Source: an uncultured Bacteroidota bacterium (GTDB taxonomy: Bacteria > Bacteroidota > Bacteroidia > Bacteroidales > CG2-30-32-10). From it: 48,576 nucleotides of DNA. The notes below the pieces were generated by a model. That model did not search any database and was not told the origin of the DNA. It saw only the letters and a program-made list of their open reading frames with translations. Location: contig CAISZK010000270.1 of assembly GCA_903889915.1 (NCBI GenBank), positions 1-48,576 of the forward strand. The letters run 5' to 3'. Below are positions 5,033-22,626 of this stretch, piece by piece. The stretch's first letter is position 1; every line of letters begins with the position of its first letter. A program made the position numbers and the translations under genes.

Positions 5033-6550
5033 TTATGTTTTATTATTCCTGCTGATTTTATAACATACCGGGCACCAGCGGTCATTAGAGTTTTCATAAA
5101 TCGCTTGCCATATATGACCTTCGCTGCATTGCCATTCTAATTTTGTCTTGGAATCATGATATTCTTCCGAGAGGCATTTACCCCCATGTTTTGCAGCTAT
5201 ATCATGCATATACTGAATGGTTTTTTTTATTCTGCCGGCACAATAAGGACACCAATTCCCGGATGTTATGGCATTGGATCTGGTTTTCCACACGTGGCCT
5301 TCACTACATTGCCATTCTAATTTTTGTTTGTTGGTGGTATATTCTGATGAAAGACATTTACCTCCTTTTTTTGCAGCCATTTCCTGCATATCCTGAATTG
5401 TTTTTCGCATTTTACCTGCACAATAAGGACACCATGTTTTATTGTTAGAGATGCTTCCTCCACTCGCTTCCCATTGATGACCATTTTTACACTCCCATAA
5501 TAATGGTAATTCACTATTGATATAAACTGTTGATAATAATTTCCCTCCTCTTTCTGCTGCAATTTTCCTGTATATTTCAATATCCTTTCTTTGCTTTGCC
5601 GACCTTGATTCATTTCCACAAACAGGACACCAGTTTCTCTTTAGAACACTATCAGGGGTTGCCTTCCAGATGTGACCTTTACTACATTTCCATACCAGTT
5701 TTGTTTTGGTATTTACAATTTCTGTTGAAAGGCAATATCCTCCTTTTTTTGCTGCAATTTCATGCATGTCGTGAATGGTCTTTCGGACTGTACCGTAGCA
5801 ATAAGGGCACCATGATTTATTGATTTTTATTGAACCGGGAGTACAATACCACTGATGTCCCTCGCGGCATTGCCACAATAGTTTAGTCTTATTTGTGACT
5901 TTTTTGTTCTCATTTATCAGTAGCTTACCCCCACGTTCTTCTGCTATTTTATGATATACGCCTATGTCGAGTGTGATTTTTTCCGCGCCTCTTTCTTTAC
6001 CACATTTTGGGCACCAACGACCTTGATGTATTACTTTGTAAGGTTCTATTTCCCATTCGTGACCTTTGCTGCATTGCCATTTCAACTTTGTTGTTGAATT
6101 AATAAATTTTTCAGAAAGAAGCTTGCCTCCCCTGCTTGCAGCTATCGCCTGCACTTCTTCAAGTGTATGATGCATGCCAACGCAATGAGGACACCATGAT
6201 TTATTGTTTTTAATAGAACTACCTGTTGTTTCCCATTGATGACCTTTAGCGCATTCCCATAGCATTTTTGTTTTTCCATTAATATATTGTTCAGTTAAAA
6301 GCCTGCCTCCTCTTCCTTGTGCAATTTCTTTCAGTTCTTTCAGATACTCATCCTTTGTCAATTGAGCTTTTGCACAAACAGGGCACCAGGCGCCCTGTTT
6401 GATAAAGCGCCAGGGCAATTCCCACACATGCCCTTTTTCGCACATCCACATCAGCCGGCAGATGTCGTCCCAATATTCTTTGCTAAGGCATTTGCCGCCG
6501 TGTTGTGCGGCGTGTTGCTGCATGTTTTCGATGGTAGGTACAGAAGGCAT
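5033..6550 (-). CDS. Protein of eight treble-clef zinc-ribbon repeats
   Basis: A 505-residue protein built almost entirely of eight units of about 60 residues. Each unit has AA..GGKxLS..Y then L.W.C..GH.W....S+....WCP.C. The paired knuckles are W-x-C-x-x-GH-x-W and WCPxC, so each unit can bind one zinc through Cys, His, Cys and Cys. This matches the probable zinc-ribbon / DUF4379 class (PF14311), often found in phage-linked, plasmid or accessory regions and thought to bind nucleic acid. All eight units keep the four ligands, arguing that the gene is intact. No signal peptide or catalytic domain is visible. The function is unknown; a role as a nucleic-acid-binding scaffold or homing-endonuclease-like DNA-binding part is inference. 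Confidence 0.75.
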   Translation of the reverse strand: MPSVPTIENMQQHAAQHGGKCLSKEYWDDICRLMWMCEKGHVWELPWRFIKQGAWCPVCAKAQLTKDEYLKELKEIAQGRGGRLLTEQYINGKTKMLWECAKGHQWETTGSSIKNNKSWCPHCVGMHHTLEEVQAIAASRGGKLLSEKFINSTTKLKWQCSKGHEWEIEPYKVIHQGRWCPKCGKERGAEKITLDIGVYHKIAEERGGKLLINENKKVTNKTKLLWQCREGHQWYCTPGSIKINKSWCPYCYGTVRKTIHDMHEIAAKKGGYCLSTEIVNTKTKLVWKCSKGHIWKATPDSVLKRNWCPVCGNESRSAKQRKDIEIYRKIAAERGGKLLSTVYINSELPLLWECKNGHQWEASGGSISNNKTWCPYCAGKMRKTIQDMQEMAAKKGGKCLSSEYTTNKQKLEWQCSEGHVWKTRSNAITSGNWCPYCAGRIKKTIQYMHDIAAKHGGKCLSEEYHDSKTKLEWQCSEGHIWQAIYENSNDRWCPVCYKISRNNKT

Positions 6551-7529: not shown

Positions 7530-7542
7530 TTTTATCATTCCT

Positions 7543-7622
7543 GTTGGCACGCATCTCCTGATGCGTGACTTCATTGCATTTTAAATTTACAAACGCGTCA
7601 GGAGACAACTCCGAATGCGGTG
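7543..7622. repeat. R2 dispersed repeat, copy 2
   Basis: GTTGGCACGCATCTCCTGAT then GCGTGACTTCATTGCATTTT then AAATTTACAAACGCGTCAGG. The arms TCTCCTGATGCG and CGCGTCAGGAGA are complementary at 11 of 12 positions around a 30-base AT-rich core. Over the first 58 bases it is nearly identical to 9637-9694. Confidence 0.75.
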
Positions 7623-9595: not shown

Positions 9596-9636
9596 ATTTT
9601 TTTTTGTTTTCTTTTTCAGTAATGTCAACTGCTTCT

Positions 9637-9714
9637 GTTGGCGCGCATCTCCTGACGCGTGACATCATAGCATTTTAAATTTACGAACGCGTCGAGACGC
9701 GCCCGAACGCGGTT
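9637..9714. repeat. R2 dispersed repeat, copy 3
   Basis: GTTGGCGCGCATCTCCTGAC then GCGTGACATCATAGCATTTT then AAATTTACGAACGCGTC, then a GAGACGCGCCCGAACGCGG tail. It is nearly identical to 7543-7600 with compensating changes in the stem (GATGCG here GACGCG), which favours a conserved structure. It separates the large STAND gene from the 9134-9595 gene. Confidence 0.75.
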
Positions 9715-9734: not shown

Positions 9735-12700
9735 TTATAATATATCCTCTCTAAGCAAATAAGCATTAACAGAACCTCGTTCTATTAAAAAATTCAGAAT
9801 TTGCAGAATTTTATTTTTGATTCTATCATCTCGCCTGACTTTATTTCGATTCAAGAAAATATATTTCCTTACTAGCTTTTCTGTGTAATAGACAGTGTTT
9901 ACTTCGAGCTTATTTCTTTTGTTTTTTTCAACCATATCGCTAATCCAGAAAATTCCCTCGTTTAAGAATTCACTACCAATTTCATTCAATAATTGTACTA
10001 TTGAATCCAGAACGGATGGAAGATGACCAATTTCTTTAACTACTTTTTTGTAAAATATTTTCTCATTTTCTTTTAAAGAATGCCAACTTTTTGCTGACTC
10101 TATCCAGTTATTACAAGCTAATAAATAGTTATGAACTACTTCTCTTAGATGATAATTTCTTGAAGAAGAATTTATCGTTAACTTTTCAAAGAAAGATTCC
10201 CATACTGTCCAAAAATGTTCGTATCGGGAAACTCTATCTTGAGCTAAAATAATTTGATGAAAAAAGGATGCCATATGTTCGTTGACTGAAAAATTATCAA
10301 CAAATGGTTGAATAAATTTGCCAATATCCTTTATATCTCTGAATAAAATGAAATAAGAAAACTTCGTAAAAACTTTAATTCTTAATGAAAAATCAATATC
10401 TTCATCTTCGTCTTCATCTTCGTCTTTATGCAACAATTTTTTGGCAAATACGGCACAAATAGAGTTGACAAATGATAATAAATCTTCATTTTCTGTATCG
10501 TGAGGTACTAATTGAAAAGCAACTTCCAAATCACGTATACTATAAGAGCTAATGTCAATTTCCTCAATTTGCAAGGGAATTAATATAAAGGACTCTATAT
10601 CATCTCCGTATTTTTCGATTAGTTTATTTATTATCTCACTTTGAGTATGACGTTGCCATTTGTAATTATCGGCGGCATCTTCCTTTAATTCGCTTAATAC
10701 TGAGTTAAAAACAGGTTTGAATTTTAAGAATGCAAAAAGAATTTTTTTTGCATCTTCGAGTGAAATTCGCCATAAATCATTCAATATTGATTCAATTGAA
10801 TAATCACTTACACGTTTGTATGCGCCAAGCTGGGTTGGATCAAAAAGTATTAATAATAGAATGGTTAAGAATTTATTCTTTTCAACAGGAAACAATTCTA
10901 TCAGAAAAGGCAACACATTAATTGCAACTTCAACACCATCCGATATTTGATATTGATAATTTTGTTGAAAAGGTTCTAATGCATATTCTAAAATAGTTTG
11001 CTTACAGATGTCTAAGTCATCAGCAGTTAATTTTGATGAATATTCGCGAAGTAAAACCGAACATGTATAAGCAGGTATCGAGCCATTGAACAAATGAAAT
11101 ATCCCATCTTGCCCCGTTGTTAATAATCCTTCAATGATTTCTTTTGTCTCTTTTAAAACAAGTTGAGGATTGTCGTCATACTGCTTATAATCATCCGTTT
11201 TTTTTGTGTTATCAAATTTATGGGATGCCCATAATTTTAATGCAGTATATTTCATTAACTCAATACTTTGCCTTGTCGTATCTTCGCTATGCTTTATTAA
11301 CTCTTCATCAATTTGGGGGTTAAAGTCAATGACAAGATTGTCTCCTTGCCTTTCGACAATGGGTTTCATTTTTCTTCTATCAATTCTTGCAAGCAACAAT
11401 CTTTTTGTTTTGTCATCATCTGTTTCTTGAGATTTTTCCGGTAGTTCGTTGTAAAGCCTATCAATTATTTCCCATAATTCTTTTTGTTTTTTATCAGCTT
11501 CTTCTTCTGTGGTCTGTTCATCTCTAAAAAATTGGTAATTTAGGATCAAATTTTCTAATGAAAGACTTCTGTGTTTATCATCACAAGTTTTTAACCGCTC
11601 ATTTTCAAATATCTTATCCTTGCTATTCATGCCCCTTCCTATTGAATAAAGACTTTTTGCTTCATGCTCTCCCATTTTTGCCCTTAGATTGTCAATCAAT
11701 AACAAAGAACTACAGCTAAAAAGTATCTTAGCAACATTAAAGAATTTATTTGGGAAAGCTAATACTATACTTGTAACAACTGATGTAATAGAAGCTGAAT
11801 TTGACTTGGTAATTAAGTAAATAAGCCAACTTTCTATAATCTCTGAATCATATTTTTCGGCTTTTTCCAAAAAATATTTTTCCAATGCCATGTGGATAGA
11901 TTGCAATAAATATGGAGATACTGGAGAACCCGCACCTCTGTACATATTCCATAAGCTACGGGAAAGATATTGTTTACAACTTTGCCCTTCATTAATAACC
12001 AACTTTATCTCTTGAATATCATTGTCAAACCCTGAATCTACATAGTTTTTGACGGTTTTGTTTGTAATGTCAATAATAAAGTCAATTGTTTTTTCAAATG
12101 ATAATACCAACAACCAATAAATAGGCGTTTGTAACGCACTTGCAGGAAAGTAATCGTGATGTCCAGAATCGTTTAATCCATAATAATTTTCGACCCCGTA
12201 CCCACCATAAAATTCTTTTTTCTTGTTTGAATCAATCCAAAATAATTTAGCCAACTTTATTACATATTCTGGAAGAGCATCTATGATGGAAAGATTGTCT
12301 GTATCGGAACTAATTACAGCTTTGCACAGGTCATAATTTAATCCTCTACGGTCAACCAAGGGTTTGGCAAGCATTTCATCAAACAAGACTATTAATTCAG
12401 TTTTAATTTCGTATGCCGAATGAATGATAATTTTGATTAATGTATTGGTAAAATCAGCACTGGATCCGTATTTATCCTTTGTCTGAATTTCTGTATAGAA
12501 TTTTAATGCCAATAGACCAGCTTCCCGAGTTGAATTTCCCTTTTTATTATTGTTGCACCAATCAGATAATAATGGAACTATATGTGGTAGAAGCGGAAAG
12601 GGAATCATATTTTGATTTTTATATATCAAATGAATAGTGCTGTTCCACCCTTTCCCTTTAGGCTTGGTAAAGACGTAATTTAAATTAATATCTTGAGTTG

Positions 12701-14483
12701 GGTCTAACAGTTTAGACCGTGTGTTATCGACTTCCTTACATGAAATTCTTAGTAAAAAGCTGATTTTTTTGAGAATTAAAAAATCGTTGTCTAAAATATT
12801 ATTCTTGAATTGTATGAAAAATTCTTCCGAATATTCGGATAATAATACAGAAGTTAAGATTTCATCTTTCCAGAATAATTCAATGCTGTCATTTTCAAAA
12901 GCATCTTCAATAAAAGTCTTTATTACTGCTATTTTATCCAATAATTTATCCGACAGCCATTGTCTGAAAGCTCGTCTTATGATTAAAGTCGTACCTATAT
13001 CATTCAAGAAAGCAGGATAATCTTGTGCAGTGTTAAAAGTTCTTTCGATATGCACATTAATCCCCCATTCTTCGTAAATATCATGAGTTATAAAATACCC
13101 TCCTGAATTTTTATCAAAACCAATGATTTCGTCCTTTACAAGCAAAGAAAGTATATTATCAGAACACTCAGTGGGTAAAATATAAAACGCACCCCTCTCA
13201 GACCTGATTTTAGCTATGTTTAAGAAGCACTTTTCCCTTAAAATATGTGTGTTATCTTTTGTGAAAGATGAGTTTTGAATTTTTCTTAACCAAATTATTT
13301 CTTTGAATTGGGCATAAAGAATTGAATTATTGTAACTGGCGTAACTTTTAAAATATTCATCAAGATAAAAGGGATTCTGGATTATATTTTTCATTCGAGC
13401 ATTTGCAGGTAATTCAAATGCATATTGTTCAGACAGCTTTTCAAGTTCTTTATCCGTTAGGTTGCTAATATTTATTTGTTCAAATGATAAGCGATAAACG
13501 CTTAAAAACTGAAAACGTAAATCATCCAGATAACTCAAACGTGTTGTAAAGATGATAGTCCATGAGTTCTTTAGCAGTTCAGATAGGAATTCTTTAACCG
13601 GTTCCTGATATTCTAAATCTGAAATTCTTTCAGCCGAATCAATTACTACAATTTTTTGTTGCTCATTTTCGTGGGCTTTAATAAAGTCTTGGAGCGAATA
13701 ATCTCCATAATTATGAAAAAGCGATTTAATCTCATGGACATTAAATTCCACTGCTTTAAACATATAAAAAGGGATTGCATTCTTATGTTTTTCAAAGAAA
13801 TCTTTAACAACAGCAGTTTTGCCGCACCCTCCTTCTCCACTTAGAATAACTGCTTTCGACTCATTCAAAGTTTCATCTAAAGTCTTTATGATTTCCTTTC
13901 GGTCAATTTTAATAGATTTTTCATTGAATACAACATCTGTTTGAATGGCAAGAAACAAATTCTCAGTATGATTTTTTAGTCCTTCGATAAAATCAATCAC
14001 ATTTTTACCTGACCCAAAGAAGAATTCTGCCAGATACAGATTCTCAGGTAAAGCGAGTTGCCTTTCAAAATGACTTGGCACTCTCCAATCAATGCTTAAA
14101 TTGATTTTCTGCGCTTCTTTTTCAATATCAGTTTTATAATCAGGGTCTTTCTTACCTTTTGTGCTGCTTTCAGAAAATTCTTGATTGATATAGAATGAAA
14201 TTTTATTAAGATTTGGATTTTCTCTTTTAGCTTTTTTAATCGAATCAATTATATCGTCTTTATTGTCGGCAATTTTTGTTTCGTAAAACTTTGCTTGGAA
14301 ACCCACAAGTTCCTCATTTGCTTGAATGGGTTCGGTTTCAATTCCAGCCTGGTTCTTAAATCGAAAAATACCTATTCTATTATTATGTTCTGCACAAAAA
14401 AGCTGATAAGCGAGATTTTCAAAAGTACCGTTTTCTTTGCCATTGAATTTGACTTTGAATATGTGCCAGTTTATTTCTATCAT
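9735..14483 (-). CDS. Avs-like antiviral STAND NTPase with Mrr-type N-terminus
   Basis: A 1582-residue protein. Residues 1-150 resemble an Mrr-type PD-(D/E)XK nuclease: FENLAYQLF at 21-29, acidic residues in AGIETEP (46-52) and GFQAKF at 61-66, fitting the (D/E)...QxK pattern. Next come Walker A GEGGCGKTA (216-224), Walker B KIVVIDSAE (277-285) and an IFTTR arginine (311-315), typical of STAND/NACHT ATPases. The remaining roughly 1,200 residues are helix-rich and repeat-like, probably a sensor. This architecture and length are those of antiviral STAND (Avs) proteins, particularly the Mrr-bearing Avs4 class, which bind a phage structural protein, oligomerise and cut DNA. The subtype is inferred; the sensor sequence looks unfamiliar. 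A short acidic run EDEDEDED (encoded near 10398-10428) interrupts the sensor. The gene is monocistronic and repeat-flanked. Confidence 0.7.
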   Translation of the reverse strand: MIEINWHIFKVKFNGKENGTFENLAYQLFCAEHNNRIGIFRFKNQAGIETEPIQANEELVGFQAKFYETKIADNKDDIIDSIKKAKRENPNLNKISFYINQEFSESSTKGKKDPDYKTDIEKEAQKINLSIDWRVPSHFERQLALPENLYLAEFFFGSGKNVIDFIEGLKNHTENLFLAIQTDVVFNEKSIKIDRKEIIKTLDETLNESKAVILSGEGGCGKTAVVKDFFEKHKNAIPFYMFKAVEFNVHEIKSLFHNYGDYSLQDFIKAHENEQQKIVVIDSAERISDLEYQEPVKEFLSELLKNSWTIIFTTRLSYLDDLRFQFLSVYRLSFEQINISNLTDKELEKLSEQYAFELPANARMKNIIQNPFYLDEYFKSYASYNNSILYAQFKEIIWLRKIQNSSFTKDNTHILREKCFLNIAKIRSERGAFYILPTECSDNILSLLVKDEIIGFDKNSGGYFITHDIYEEWGINVHIERTFNTAQDYPAFLNDIGTTLIIRRAFRQWLSDKLLDKIAVIKTFIEDAFENDSIELFWKDEILTSVLLSEYSEEFFIQFKNNILDNDFLILKKISFLLRISCKEVDNTRSKLLDPTQDINLNYVFTKPKGKGWNSTIHLIYKNQNMIPFPLLPHIVPLLSDWCNNNKKGNSTREAGLLALKFYTEIQTKDKYGSSADFTNTLIKIIIHSAYEIKTELIVLFDEMLAKPLVDRRGLNYDLCKAVISSDTDNLSIIDALPEYVIKLAKLFWIDSNKKKEFYGGYGVENYYGLNDSGHHDYFPASALQTPIYWLLVLSFEKTIDFIIDITNKTVKNYVDSGFDNDIQEIKLVINEGQSCKQYLSRSLWNMYRGAGSPVSPYLLQSIHMALEKYFLEKAEKYDSEIIESWLIYLITKSNSASITSVVTSIVLAFPNKFFNVAKILFSCSSLLLIDNLRAKMGEHEAKSLYSIGRGMNSKDKIFENERLKTCDDKHRSLSLENLILNYQFFRDEQTTEEEADKKQKELWEIIDRLYNELPEKSQETDDDKTKRLLLARIDRRKMKPIVERQGDNLVIDFNPQIDEELIKHSEDTTRQSIELMKYTALKLWASHKFDNTKKTDDYKQYDDNPQLVLKETKEIIEGLLTTGQDGIFHLFNGSIPAYTCSVLLREYSSKLTADDLDICKQTILEYALEPFQQNYQYQISDGVEVAINVLPFLIELFPVEKNKFLTILLLILFDPTQLGAYKRVSDYSIESILNDLWRISLEDAKKILFAFLKFKPVFNSVLSELKEDAADNYKWQRHTQSEIINKLIEKYGDDIESFILIPLQIEEIDISSYSIRDLEVAFQLVPHDTENEDLLSFVNSICAVFAKKLLHKDEDEDEDEDIDFSLRIKVFTKFSYFILFRDIKDIGKFIQPFVDNFSVNEHMASFFHQIILAQDRVSRYEHFWTVWESFFEKLTINSSSRNYHLREVVHNYLLACNNWIESAKSWHSLKENEKIFYKKVVKEIGHLPSVLDSIVQLLNEIGSEFLNEGIFWISDMVEKNKRNKLEVNTVYYTEKLVRKYIFLNRNKVRRDDRIKNKILQILNFLIERGSVNAYLLREDIL

Positions 14484-14538: not shown

Positions 14539-14725
14539 GCAAGCGTGAGCGTGCTGCTCGTACCTAATATTAAAAGGCTTCCAACCCATATTCCACCGGT
14601 CCCCATTAACCCCTCTTTCAACCACAATTCCCCCTCTAAATTATTATTATTTTTTTAGATTTTATCCCTTTTTCTTTTTTGCTTCATTCAGTATTTTCTT
14701 TTCATTGCCTTGCAATTGCTTTGCA
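14539..14725. repeat. R3 plus R4 composite repeat, copy 1
   Basis: R3 part: GCAAGCGTGAGCGTGCTGCT and CGTACCTAATATTAAAAGGC (14539-14578). R4 part (14608-14725): CCCCTCTTTCAACCACAATT, then CTAAATTATTATTATTTTTT, then TTTATCCCTTTTTCTTTTTT and GCTTCATTCAGTATTTTCTT. On the minus strand R4 encodes the tail KKILNEAKKKKG of the upstream gene. Confidence 0.8.
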
Positions 14726-14877
14726 TTTTTGGCTGTCACAATTTTATCACCTGTTTTTGCTTCTATTTCTTTGCGGGTATTGCCGGCAATTGTGCCTCCC
14801 TGTTTTGCAATCTTTTTGCTTTGTTCAAAAGTTATAGGCTTTTTCTTTTTTGAGATTTGTGGTAGTGGCTTCGGCAA
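14662..14877 (-). CDS. Detached C-terminal part of the Bro-N gene (other frame)
   Basis: A 71-residue frame: ISKKKKPITFEQSKKIAKQG then GTIAGNTRKEIEAKTGDKIV, which is what one expects after ...NMLAEATTT in full-length Bro-N proteins of Bacteroidota. It overlaps the N-terminal part (14825-15517) by 53 bases in a different frame. The nominal start (MPKPLPQ) is the frame-shifted reading of the same region that encodes NMLAEATTT, so it is unlikely to be an independent gene. It ends in KKILNEAKKKKG, encoded by R4. Confidence 0.6.
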   Translation of the reverse strand: MPKPLPQISKKKKPITFEQSKKIAKQGGTIAGNTRKEIEAKTGDKIVTAKNAKQLQGNEKKILNEAKKKKG

Positions 14878-15517
14878 GCATATTAAGGACTAATTCCAAA
14901 TTCGCCATATGATCTCTAAGATTCTCTTTTTTCAAACCTTTGAGGTTCTTGTATTGCTTGGTAGTTAGTTCTGCCCAGGCTTTGGTAATTTCATCAGTCA
15001 GTATTGCATATTCCTGTCCTTTCTTAACTCCGCGATTATCCCATTCGTCAGTGAGTTCCTTCCTGACTTCAATGCTTTTCAGGCGTTGGTTGATCCAGTT
15101 TTTGCTGTAACCTTTTTTCATATAGGTTTCCATCAGGCGGTCGAAGCCAATTTCGGGGTCTTCAATTTCATCAATTCTTTCTCTGCCTACCTTTGCCAGC
15201 CACATTTTAAAAGGTTCGACTTTGGGTGAAGGAATGGATTGAATAAGGCGGAATAGTTGTTCTGTATCGGCTACATCAGTCAAATAAAATTTGCCATCGG
15301 CTGATTGCATTTTCAGTTGTCCGATTTTTTCGGACAACTGACTTCCCTCCTTATTGATCTTTGCTTTTAAATCATTCCAATATTTCCGTGGCCGGTCGGT
15401 GCCTGTAAGCGCTTCGATGACATCAATAATTGAAAAGTACCATTTTTCGAGTTCGTCATTCCAAATAGAGCGTACCTGCTTCGATTCAAATAATTTTATG
15501 CTTGTTTCTTTAGTCAT
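14825..15517 (-). CDS. Bro-N domain antirepressor-like protein, frameshifted 3' end
   Basis: A 230-residue frame. Residues 1-100 form a Bro-N domain: IKLFESKQVRSIWNDELEKW then YFSIIDVIEALTGTDRPRKY, then FRLIQSIPSPKVEPFKMWLA, all diagnostic of the prophage antirepressor/Bro-N family. A helical part follows (GYSKNWINQRLKSIEVRKEL, and DEITKAWAELTTKQYKNLKG). The frame ends abruptly with NLKKEKAYNF, while the expected continuation ISKKKKPITFEQ is found at 14662-14877 one frame away. A one-base change around the A6 run near 14845-14855 explains this. It could be a real mutation, an assembly error or slippage. Bro-N proteins bind DNA and are common in phages and mobile regions. Confidence 0.75.
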   Translation of the reverse strand: MTKETSIKLFESKQVRSIWNDELEKWYFSIIDVIEALTGTDRPRKYWNDLKAKINKEGSQLSEKIGQLKMQSADGKFYLTDVADTEQLFRLIQSIPSPKVEPFKMWLAKVGRERIDEIEDPEIGFDRLMETYMKKGYSKNWINQRLKSIEVRKELTDEWDNRGVKKGQEYAILTDEITKAWAELTTKQYKNLKGLKKENLRDHMANLELVLNMLAEATTTNLKKEKAYNF

Positions 15518-15685: not shown

Positions 15686-15946
15686 TCAGCAAGTGCACGC
15701 CAGCCGTATATTTCGAAGTTTTCCGGTATTGGTCGGCATGTCTATCTGGGGACAATTTGTCCCCAGGTAATCGCCAAATAAGGAATCACGTTTTCGCAAT
15801 TTCTTCAAATAATCGGTTGGATTAGCGCTGTCGGTTAAAATTCCAACCACATCCACTATCGAAAAATACCACTCTTCTTCCTCTTCATTCCAAGAAGTAC
15901 GGATTTTTTTATCCTCAAAAAGTTTTATAGTGTTTTGACTATCCAT
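15686..15946 (-). CDS. Truncated Bro-N paralogue
   Basis: An 86-residue frame beginning MDSQNTIKLFEDKKIRTSWN then EEEEEWYFSIVDVVGILTDS, clearly paralogous to the start of the neighbouring Bro-N protein. It continues GTNCPQIDMPTNTGKLRNIR, the usual region before LA..+..FRIIQSIPSPK, but stops at once with LACTC. The helical C-terminal half of the family is absent, and the following 170 bases hold no continuation of the Bro-N domain; only a short other-frame stretch ALAEGRHK is seen. Probably a decaying duplicate or an isolated DNA-binding half. No R3/R4 repeat follows it. Confidence 0.65.
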   Translation of the reverse strand: MDSQNTIKLFEDKKIRTSWNEEEEEWYFSIVDVVGILTDSANPTDYLKKLRKRDSLFGDYLGTNCPQIDMPTNTGKLRNIRLACTC

Positions 15947-15992
15947 GTTATTAATATTTTTCTTGTTCTAAATCTAATATTCTTTTTCTTCT

Positions 15993-16190
15993 GCAAGCAA
16001 GAGTATCCCACTTGCACTAGTTATTAATTGGCATCCTGCCATTTTCCATCCCCTCCTCATTTACCCCTCTTTCAACCACAATTCATCCGCTAAATTATTA
16101 TTATTTTTTTGATTTTATCCCTTTTTCTTTTATGCTTTATACAGTATTTTCTTTTCATCGCCTTGCAGTTTTCGCTTTAGCTTTTTAATG
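15993..16190. repeat. R3 plus R4 composite repeat, copy 2
   Basis: R3: GCAAGCAAGAGTATCCCACT then TGCACTAGTTATTAATTGGC then ATCCTGCCAT (15993-16042). R4 (16051-16190): CCCCTCTTTCAACCACAATT then CATCCGCTAAATTATTATTA, then CAGTATTTTCTTTTCATCGC and CTTGCAGTTTTCGC. Read on the minus strand, R4 gives KKLKRKLQGDEKKILYKA and a stop, an orphan version of the tail seen in two neighbouring genes, with no gene body attached. This fills most of the 15947-16247 gap. Confidence 0.8.
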
Positions 16191-17388: not shown

Positions 17389-17573
17389 CAAGCGCGAGCA
17401 TGCCACTCGTGCTCGCTATTAAATGGCATCCTGCCATAATCCTTCCCCTCATCATTCACCCCTCTTTCAACAACACTTCATCCGCTAAATTATTTTTTTG
17501 ACTTTATCCCTTATTTTTCTTTCAGCATTTTCATTTCATCGTCTTGCGGTTTTCACTTTAGCTTTTTAACCCC
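17389..17573. repeat. R3 plus R4 composite repeat, copy 3
   Basis: R3: ACAAGCGCGAGCATGCCACT then CGTGCTCGCTATTAAATGGC then ATCCTGCCAT, with a GCGAGCA/TGCTCGC stem. R4 from 17459: CCCCTCTTTCAACAACACTT then CATCCGCTAAATTATTTTTT and TCATTTCATCGTCTTGCGGT. The minus-strand tail reading is decayed by internal stops (KKLK, stop, KPQDDEMKML). It occupies most of the 17331-17642 gap, below the YhcG gene; the remaining bases near 17574-17642 show nothing further. Confidence 0.8.
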
Positions 17574-18707: not shown

Positions 18708-18862
18708 GCAAATTCATTTTATCAAATCTTGTCAATTCAACTACATTTACGTCATTTCATTAAAATCTTTCTCTCCATTCTTCCCTTTTCTCATTCTCAT
18801 CCATCCAAATCCCTTTACCCATTTCATTCAATATCCAATTTCATCCTCTCCTCATTTACCTC

Positions 18863-18960
18863 TTTCAACCACAATACGTCCGCTAAATTATTATTATTTT
18901 TATCCCTTTTTCTTTTTTGCTTCATTCAGTATTTTCTTTACATCGCCTTCCGTCATCGCA
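18863..18960. repeat. R4 repeat without R3, copy 4
   Basis: CCTCTTTCAACCACAATACG then TCCGCTAAATTATTATTATT, TTTATCCCTTTTTCTTTTTT and GCTTCATTCAGTATTTTCTT, about as similar to copy 1 as copy 2 is. It encodes the last residues of the ORF6N gene. The pyrimidine-rich stretch 18720-18860 below it (ATTCTTCCCTTTTCTCATTC) shows no gene. Confidence 0.8.
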
Positions 18961-21723: not shown

Positions 21724-22626
21724 ATGCCAGCAATAAAAACCATCACCATCAACAAGTATGATTACATGAATGCAAAGCCGGCTGCTGATTTTACTGATGT
21801 GAAACCGGTCATTTCAGCATTCACCGAATTTGATAAAGAAGGGCATACAATCACTGAGATCACTTATCTCAATGATGGCAGTATTGAACAGAAATGCGAA
21901 TATCAGTATAACGAAAAAGGTGAACCCATCAGCGAAATTCTGATCAATGACGAAGGAGAAGTTGATGAGAAAAAAACCTTTGAGTACAATGATAAGGGGC
22001 AACTTTCAAAAGAGTTTCTGATCTACCAGGATGAATCATTCGATACCACCGATTTTAATTACAATGATGAAGGAAAATTGCTTGAAAAGATCACTGTTGA
22101 TCATGATGGTGTTCCTGAATCAAAAAAAGAATATAAGTACGAAAAAGGGCTGCTGATGAGCGAAACTGCTTTCGATGGTGAAAACAATATTCTCACGGAG
22201 ATCAATTATGTTTATGATGAAAAGGGCAATGAAATTGAGATCATCCACCACAATGCACTGGAAGATGTGAGAACGCGAACGGAATATGAGTATAACGAAT
22301 CCAATAAGAAAACGGAAGCTTATGCTTACAACAGCAAAGATGAGTTGGTGGCGAAAAATCTTTATAAAGAAGATGAAAAAGGACAAGTGATTGAAATTGT
22401 TGAAGAAGATCAGTTCAATAAGAGCACAACGGTTATTGAGTATGATGATAAAGGCAACATGATCTCGCAACTTGAATCGAATTCGGCTGGCGAATTAAAT
22501 CACCGTATTTTAAGGAAGTTTGATGAGAATGATAATTTGCTTGAAGTGGCCGTCACCATTGACAAACACGGGGCAGGCCTGAACCAAAACTATGTCATTC
22601 ATTACGAATACGAATATTTTGAGTAA
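21724..22626 (+). CDS. YD-like repeat protein without signal peptide
   Basis: A 300-residue acidic protein containing about nine units of 20-25 residues that resemble RHS/YD repeats: YNEKGEPISEILINDEGEVD, EYNDKGQLSKEFLIYQDESF, YNDEGKLLEKITVDHDGVPE, YDEKGNEIEIIHHNALEDVR and YDDKGNMISQLESNSAGELN. The pattern Y(N/D)-x-KG-x-(I/L)-x-E matches YD repeats, which in secreted proteins build a beta-cocoon. Here there is neither a signal peptide nor an RHS core nor a toxin end, so it is a free-standing cytosolic version. Start ATG 21724. It may be unrelated functionally to the divergent peptidase gene. Function unknown. Confidence 0.7.
   Translation: MPAIKTITINKYDYMNAKPAADFTDVKPVISAFTEFDKEGHTITEITYLNDGSIEQKCEYQYNEKGEPISEILINDEGEVDEKKTFEYNDKGQLSKEFLIYQDESFDTTDFNYNDEGKLLEKITVDHDGVPESKKEYKYEKGLLMSETAFDGENNILTEINYVYDEKGNEIEIIHHNALEDVRTRTEYEYNESNKKTEAYAYNSKDELVAKNLYKEDEKGQVIEIVEEDQFNKSTTVIEYDDKGNMISQLESNSAGELNHRILRKFDENDNLLEVAVTIDKHGAGLNQNYVIHYEYEYFE

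Follow-up and report, generated by a model that had tools for sequence, protein, structure and literature searches.

A complete and probably functional Avs4 antiphage protein encoded by an uncultured Bacteroidota bacterium

Among the Avs proteins, Avs4 recognizes the phage portal and Avs1-3 the large terminase (PMC12724215). In Avs1-4, the nuclease effectors cut the DNA of phage and host alike (PMC12931631). The closest described system to the locus presented here is the plasmid-encoded Avs4 of E. coli (EcAvs4; PDB 8dgf, NF041815), whose PDB entry is entitled 'Avs4 bound to phage PhiV-1 portal' and holds one sequence in four chains, consistent with a tetramer. Here we analyzed a gene within a stretch of 48,576 nucleotides (the window, on contig C270) from an uncultured Bacteroidota bacterium, whose genome is fragmented (476 contigs, 5.55 Mb in total). 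Its product is Avs4 over the whole length, an already described immune protein, and thus a new member of the family and not a new kind of sensor.

The gene is a single open reading frame on the minus strand with no internal stops along its 1582 codons (Table 1). The protein aligns from residue 5 to 1582 with the whole NCBIfam Avs4 equivalog model (profile positions 1-1579 of 1579), exceeding the curated cut-off of 1500 bits by 571, and from residue 1 to 1582 with the whole PADLOC Avs4 model (1-1570 of 1570). Because the 2071-bit match to a curated model is full-length, the feature cannot be ascribed to chance. PADLOC assigned the product to Avs4 alone, with no second defence family; at E values up to 0.1, Avs1-3 and Avs5 are absent from its output, the presence of each of these models in the library being unverified. 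When the PDB was searched with phmmer, 8dgf was the sole real match (residues 1-1582 against 1-1587), and the identity to EcAvs4 is about 42% end to end. The two proteins are alike in length (1582 and 1587 residues), domain order, nuclease and ATPase motifs, and in the folds predicted for both halves of the window protein, whereas they differ in their source (an enterobacterial plasmid versus an uncultured Bacteroidota contig), in their gene neighbors and at residues 1251-1350, which are poorly conserved. Avs3 (PDB 8dgc) has the STAND ATPase core in common with the window protein, but it is a weak structural match with another sensor, and the match to Avs5 (PDB 9jap, 9nc9) is limited to the common STAND ATPase core, Avs5 having another sensor and a SIR2 effector.

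Table 1. Coordinates of the avs4 gene and of the domains and motifs of its product in the window.
Feature	Position	Strand	Evidence or remark
avs4 gene, 1582 aa, ATG start	9735..14483	-	NF041815 2071.5 bits; PADLOC Avs4 1967 bits; PDB 8dgf 1226.7 bits, full length
Mrr-like PD-(D/E)xK nuclease domain, residues 1-143	14055..14483	-	model of residues 1-380 superposes on 8dgf_A
Nuclease motif Q63-A-K65	14289..14297	-	presumed catalytic with E22 (14418-14420) and E49 (14337-14339)
Walker A GEGGCGKT, residues 216-223	13815..13838	-	conservation in 80 relatives; Pfam nSTAND1/AAA
Walker B IVVIDSAE, residues 278-285	13629..13652	-	conservation in 80 relatives
FTTR motif, residues 312-315	13539..13550	-	conservation in 80 relatives
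HDIYEEW, residues 467-473, family signature past the ATPase core	13065..13085	-	conservation in 80 relatives
Helical C-terminal sensor region, residues 480-1582	9738..13046	-	model of residues 383-1582 on portal-bound EcAvs4 8dgf_A

An earlier sequence-only reading had proposed an Avs-like STAND NTPase with an Mrr-type nuclease, a P-loop, Walker B and IFTTR, and a long helical C-terminus in one reading frame. Every one of these features is present, and the profile search with Avs models that it suggested places the protein inside Avs, with Avs4 as the exact identity. The structure predicted for residues 1-380 (mean pLDDT 91.2) superposes on residues 1-394 of 8dgf_A with a Z score of 32.9, the next row scoring 13.0, and residues 1-150 hold the nuclease fold of 8dgf. 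The presumed catalytic residues are strongly conserved in the best 80 of 152 relatives, on which all alignment and conservation counts are based (E22 and E49 in 76/80 each, Q63 in 74/80 and K65 in 78/80), and the exceptions are mostly rows whose N-terminus is swapped or absent. Pfam nSTAND1 and AAA score above their cut-offs over residues 195-350. Within the ATPase, Walker A (seen as SGEGGCGKT, 215-223) retains G219, G221, K222 and T223, and Walker B retains D282, S283 and E285, each in all 80 relatives; in IFTTR (311-315), R315 is likewise invariant, with F312 in 77 and T313 in 78. The HDIYEEW motif, which served as a scan pattern, has D468, Y470, E471 and E472 in 80/80 each. Among the columns conserved in at least 90% of these relatives, the window protein deviates at nine only, and all of the changes are mild (e.g., L to I or Y to F).

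The remainder of the protein was modeled as residues 383-1582 from 27 sequences of the window and the retrieved loci (mean pLDDT 84.9) and is almost wholly helical. This model superposes on residues 392-1587 of 8dgf_A with a Z score of 39.1 and an rmsd of 6.6 over 1148 aligned residues with 41% identity, an rmsd as would be expected of a long flexible solenoid. 8dgf is its sole strong structural match, the next one being an unrelated helical-repeat protein (Z 11.7). At the sequence level, the last 667 residues alone match residues 918-1587 of 8dgf with 468 bits. Both halves therefore superpose on the solved Avs4, the comparison that had been proposed as a check. The broad class given by the sequence-only reading thus stands, together with its Mrr nuclease and defence-gene neighbors; its suggestion that the C-terminal sensor could not be placed and might have a new phage target finds no support, given that the whole region is homologous to the EcAvs4 sensor both in sequence and in predicted fold, and we reject an orphan sensor. 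The most variable stretch is formed by residues 1251-1350, with 16-30% identity to EcAvs4, so the portals recognized could differ.

The 152 relatives, of which the best 80 were kept, were retrieved by a scan of genome contigs; their sources include Bacteroidota, Bacillota, Pseudomonadota, Campylobacterota, Omnitrophota and Methanosarcina, among others. In the tree, the window Avs4 clusters with those of six Bacteroidota loci (L035, L036, L040, L081, L043 and L044) with SH-aLRT values of 98-99%. The nearest relatives found, from Cyclobacterium jeungdonense (L036) and a Bacteroidales MAG (L035), are 57% identical over the full length, and relatives of the Bro-N, RhuM, YhcG and ORF6N genes of the window were not detected alongside them. 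Of 395 genomes sampled from the phylum, only the window's own passes the Avs4 cut-off, which implies a patchy distribution of the gene. Phage-borne copies were also sought: the avs4 query gave no relative in IMG/VR and only a weak partial match among GenBank phages. Exchange of effectors on a common sensor is known for Avs proteins. In four of the retrieved loci (L033 4869-9224, L003 853-5718, L103 and L106), the Avs4 ATPase and sensor are preceded by something other than the Mrr-like nuclease. Proteins with such a different N-terminus comprise one from a Calothrix plasmid, two from Campylobacterota and that of the Bacteroidota locus L003, whose first 220 residues look like a trypsin-like protease.

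Upstream of avs4 and on the same strand lie genes for Bro-N (PF02498; PDC-S13), RhuM (PF13310; PDC-S05), YhcG (PF06250/PF17761; PDC-S02) and ORF6N (PF10543; PDC-S05), all PADLOC candidates, which we regard as uncharacterized defence candidates. The adjoining defence-associated genes had been recognized correctly before, the first three by name and here confirmed by Pfam, with ORF6N unmentioned. In Desulforamulus aeronauticus, too, avs4 is immediately preceded by a Bro-N gene (L045 7971-8936; 64% identical in the matched part), and in a second Bacillota genome by a truncated one (L089 8636-8989; 57% identical in the matched part). Since two of the 80 retrieved loci are too few, no functional link between Bro-N and avs4 is claimed. 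The Bro-N gene of the window (14655-15517) stops early through a frameshift near its 3' end, and an alternative frame there continues with the C-terminus seen in D. aeronauticus. A second, N-terminal Bro-N remnant is located at about 15700-15946, and these lesions represent either real decay or an assembly error.

Several other readings of the locus were weighed. The identity of 42% to EcAvs4 leaves room for change and residues 1251-1350 are hypervariable, and for a Klebsiella Avs2-family protein, binding of the additional protein Ksap1 alongside the terminase is reported (PMC12724215); an Avs4-fold protein of this Bacteroidota lineage might accordingly have shifted its sensor from the portal to another phage protein. 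We consider such a shift very unlikely, as the entire sensor superposes on portal-bound Avs4, every strongly conserved sensor position is kept, and the same sensor is retained in relatives from many phyla. Only slightly less improbable is that changes at residues ~1251-1350 restrict the response of the protein to portals of a phage group untried with Avs4, or direct it to a non-portal phage protein. The frameshifted Bro-N gene and the neighboring remnant could also indicate that avs4 itself is a decayed, inactive copy in a degrading island, but its frame is open across the full length and all catalytic motifs are intact, which makes this reading less probable still. Finally, the protein could belong to another antiphage STAND family, whether Avs1-3, Avs5 or one without a name, and carry a new sensor, as the sequence-only reading suggested; this has nothing in its favor except the common domain order. 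The Avs4-only assignment by PADLOC, the NCBIfam score far above the cut-off, the superposition of the sensor on 8dgf, and fold matches with a TM score of 0.34 for Avs3 (8dgc) versus 0.86 for Avs4 all speak against it, leaving it a negligible probability.

We therefore favor, with a probability of roughly 0.93, a complete and probably functional Avs4 that would act through a portal trigger, a tetramer and a nuclease with an abortive outcome. Given the identity, the predicted folds and the intact, near-invariant motifs, the protein most likely works like EcAvs4, by portal binding, tetramerization and DNA cleavage. From what is described for the family, we infer that, in the resting protein, the helical solenoid at the C-terminus would bind the portal of a tailed phage during infection, upon which the STAND ATPase, with ATP, would assemble into a tetramer. 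This assembly would bring the N-terminal Mrr-like nucleases together to cut DNA, and the infection would be stopped at the cost of the cell. The locus adds one diverged Avs4 to a family of known trigger and structure; it is of low surprise and raises no new sensor question, and its chief use is comparative, namely whether portal recognition holds across phyla.

A repeat of 115-186 nt occurs four times in the gaps between avs4 and the Bro-N, RhuM, YhcG and ORF6N genes (14568-14717, 15990-16175, 17389-17554 and 18835-18949), with some occurrences extending into a gene end. Each copy opens with the 3' end of a Bro-N-type gene (LQGNEKKILNEAKKKKG), followed by about 150 nt. The rest of the genome contains a single partial copy, so the repeat is nearly confined to the island, and these Bro-N-end repeats point to local duplication or recombination. 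Intergenic repeats of this kind suggested an integron-like cassette array, which we do not claim, given their make-up from a Bro-N gene end and their near-confinement to the island, and with no integrase recognized in the scanned genes. Neither tRNA genes nor other known RNAs that could mark an integration site were found within the window. A gene for an S9 peptidase is common to the same-family and same-order genomes compared, two of three of which also have its other neighbor (21724-22626). None of the island genes was found beside the S9 peptidase in these genomes, their contigs being too short to reveal an empty site. A separate 59-nt repeat, 92% identical between its copies, occurs at 7541-7599 and 9635-9693, the second copy directly past the avs4 stop codon. 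Elsewhere in the window, positions 5033-6550 encode a 505-residue protein containing six DUF4379 treble-clef zinc-finger units, which account for the strong tandem DNA repeats there.
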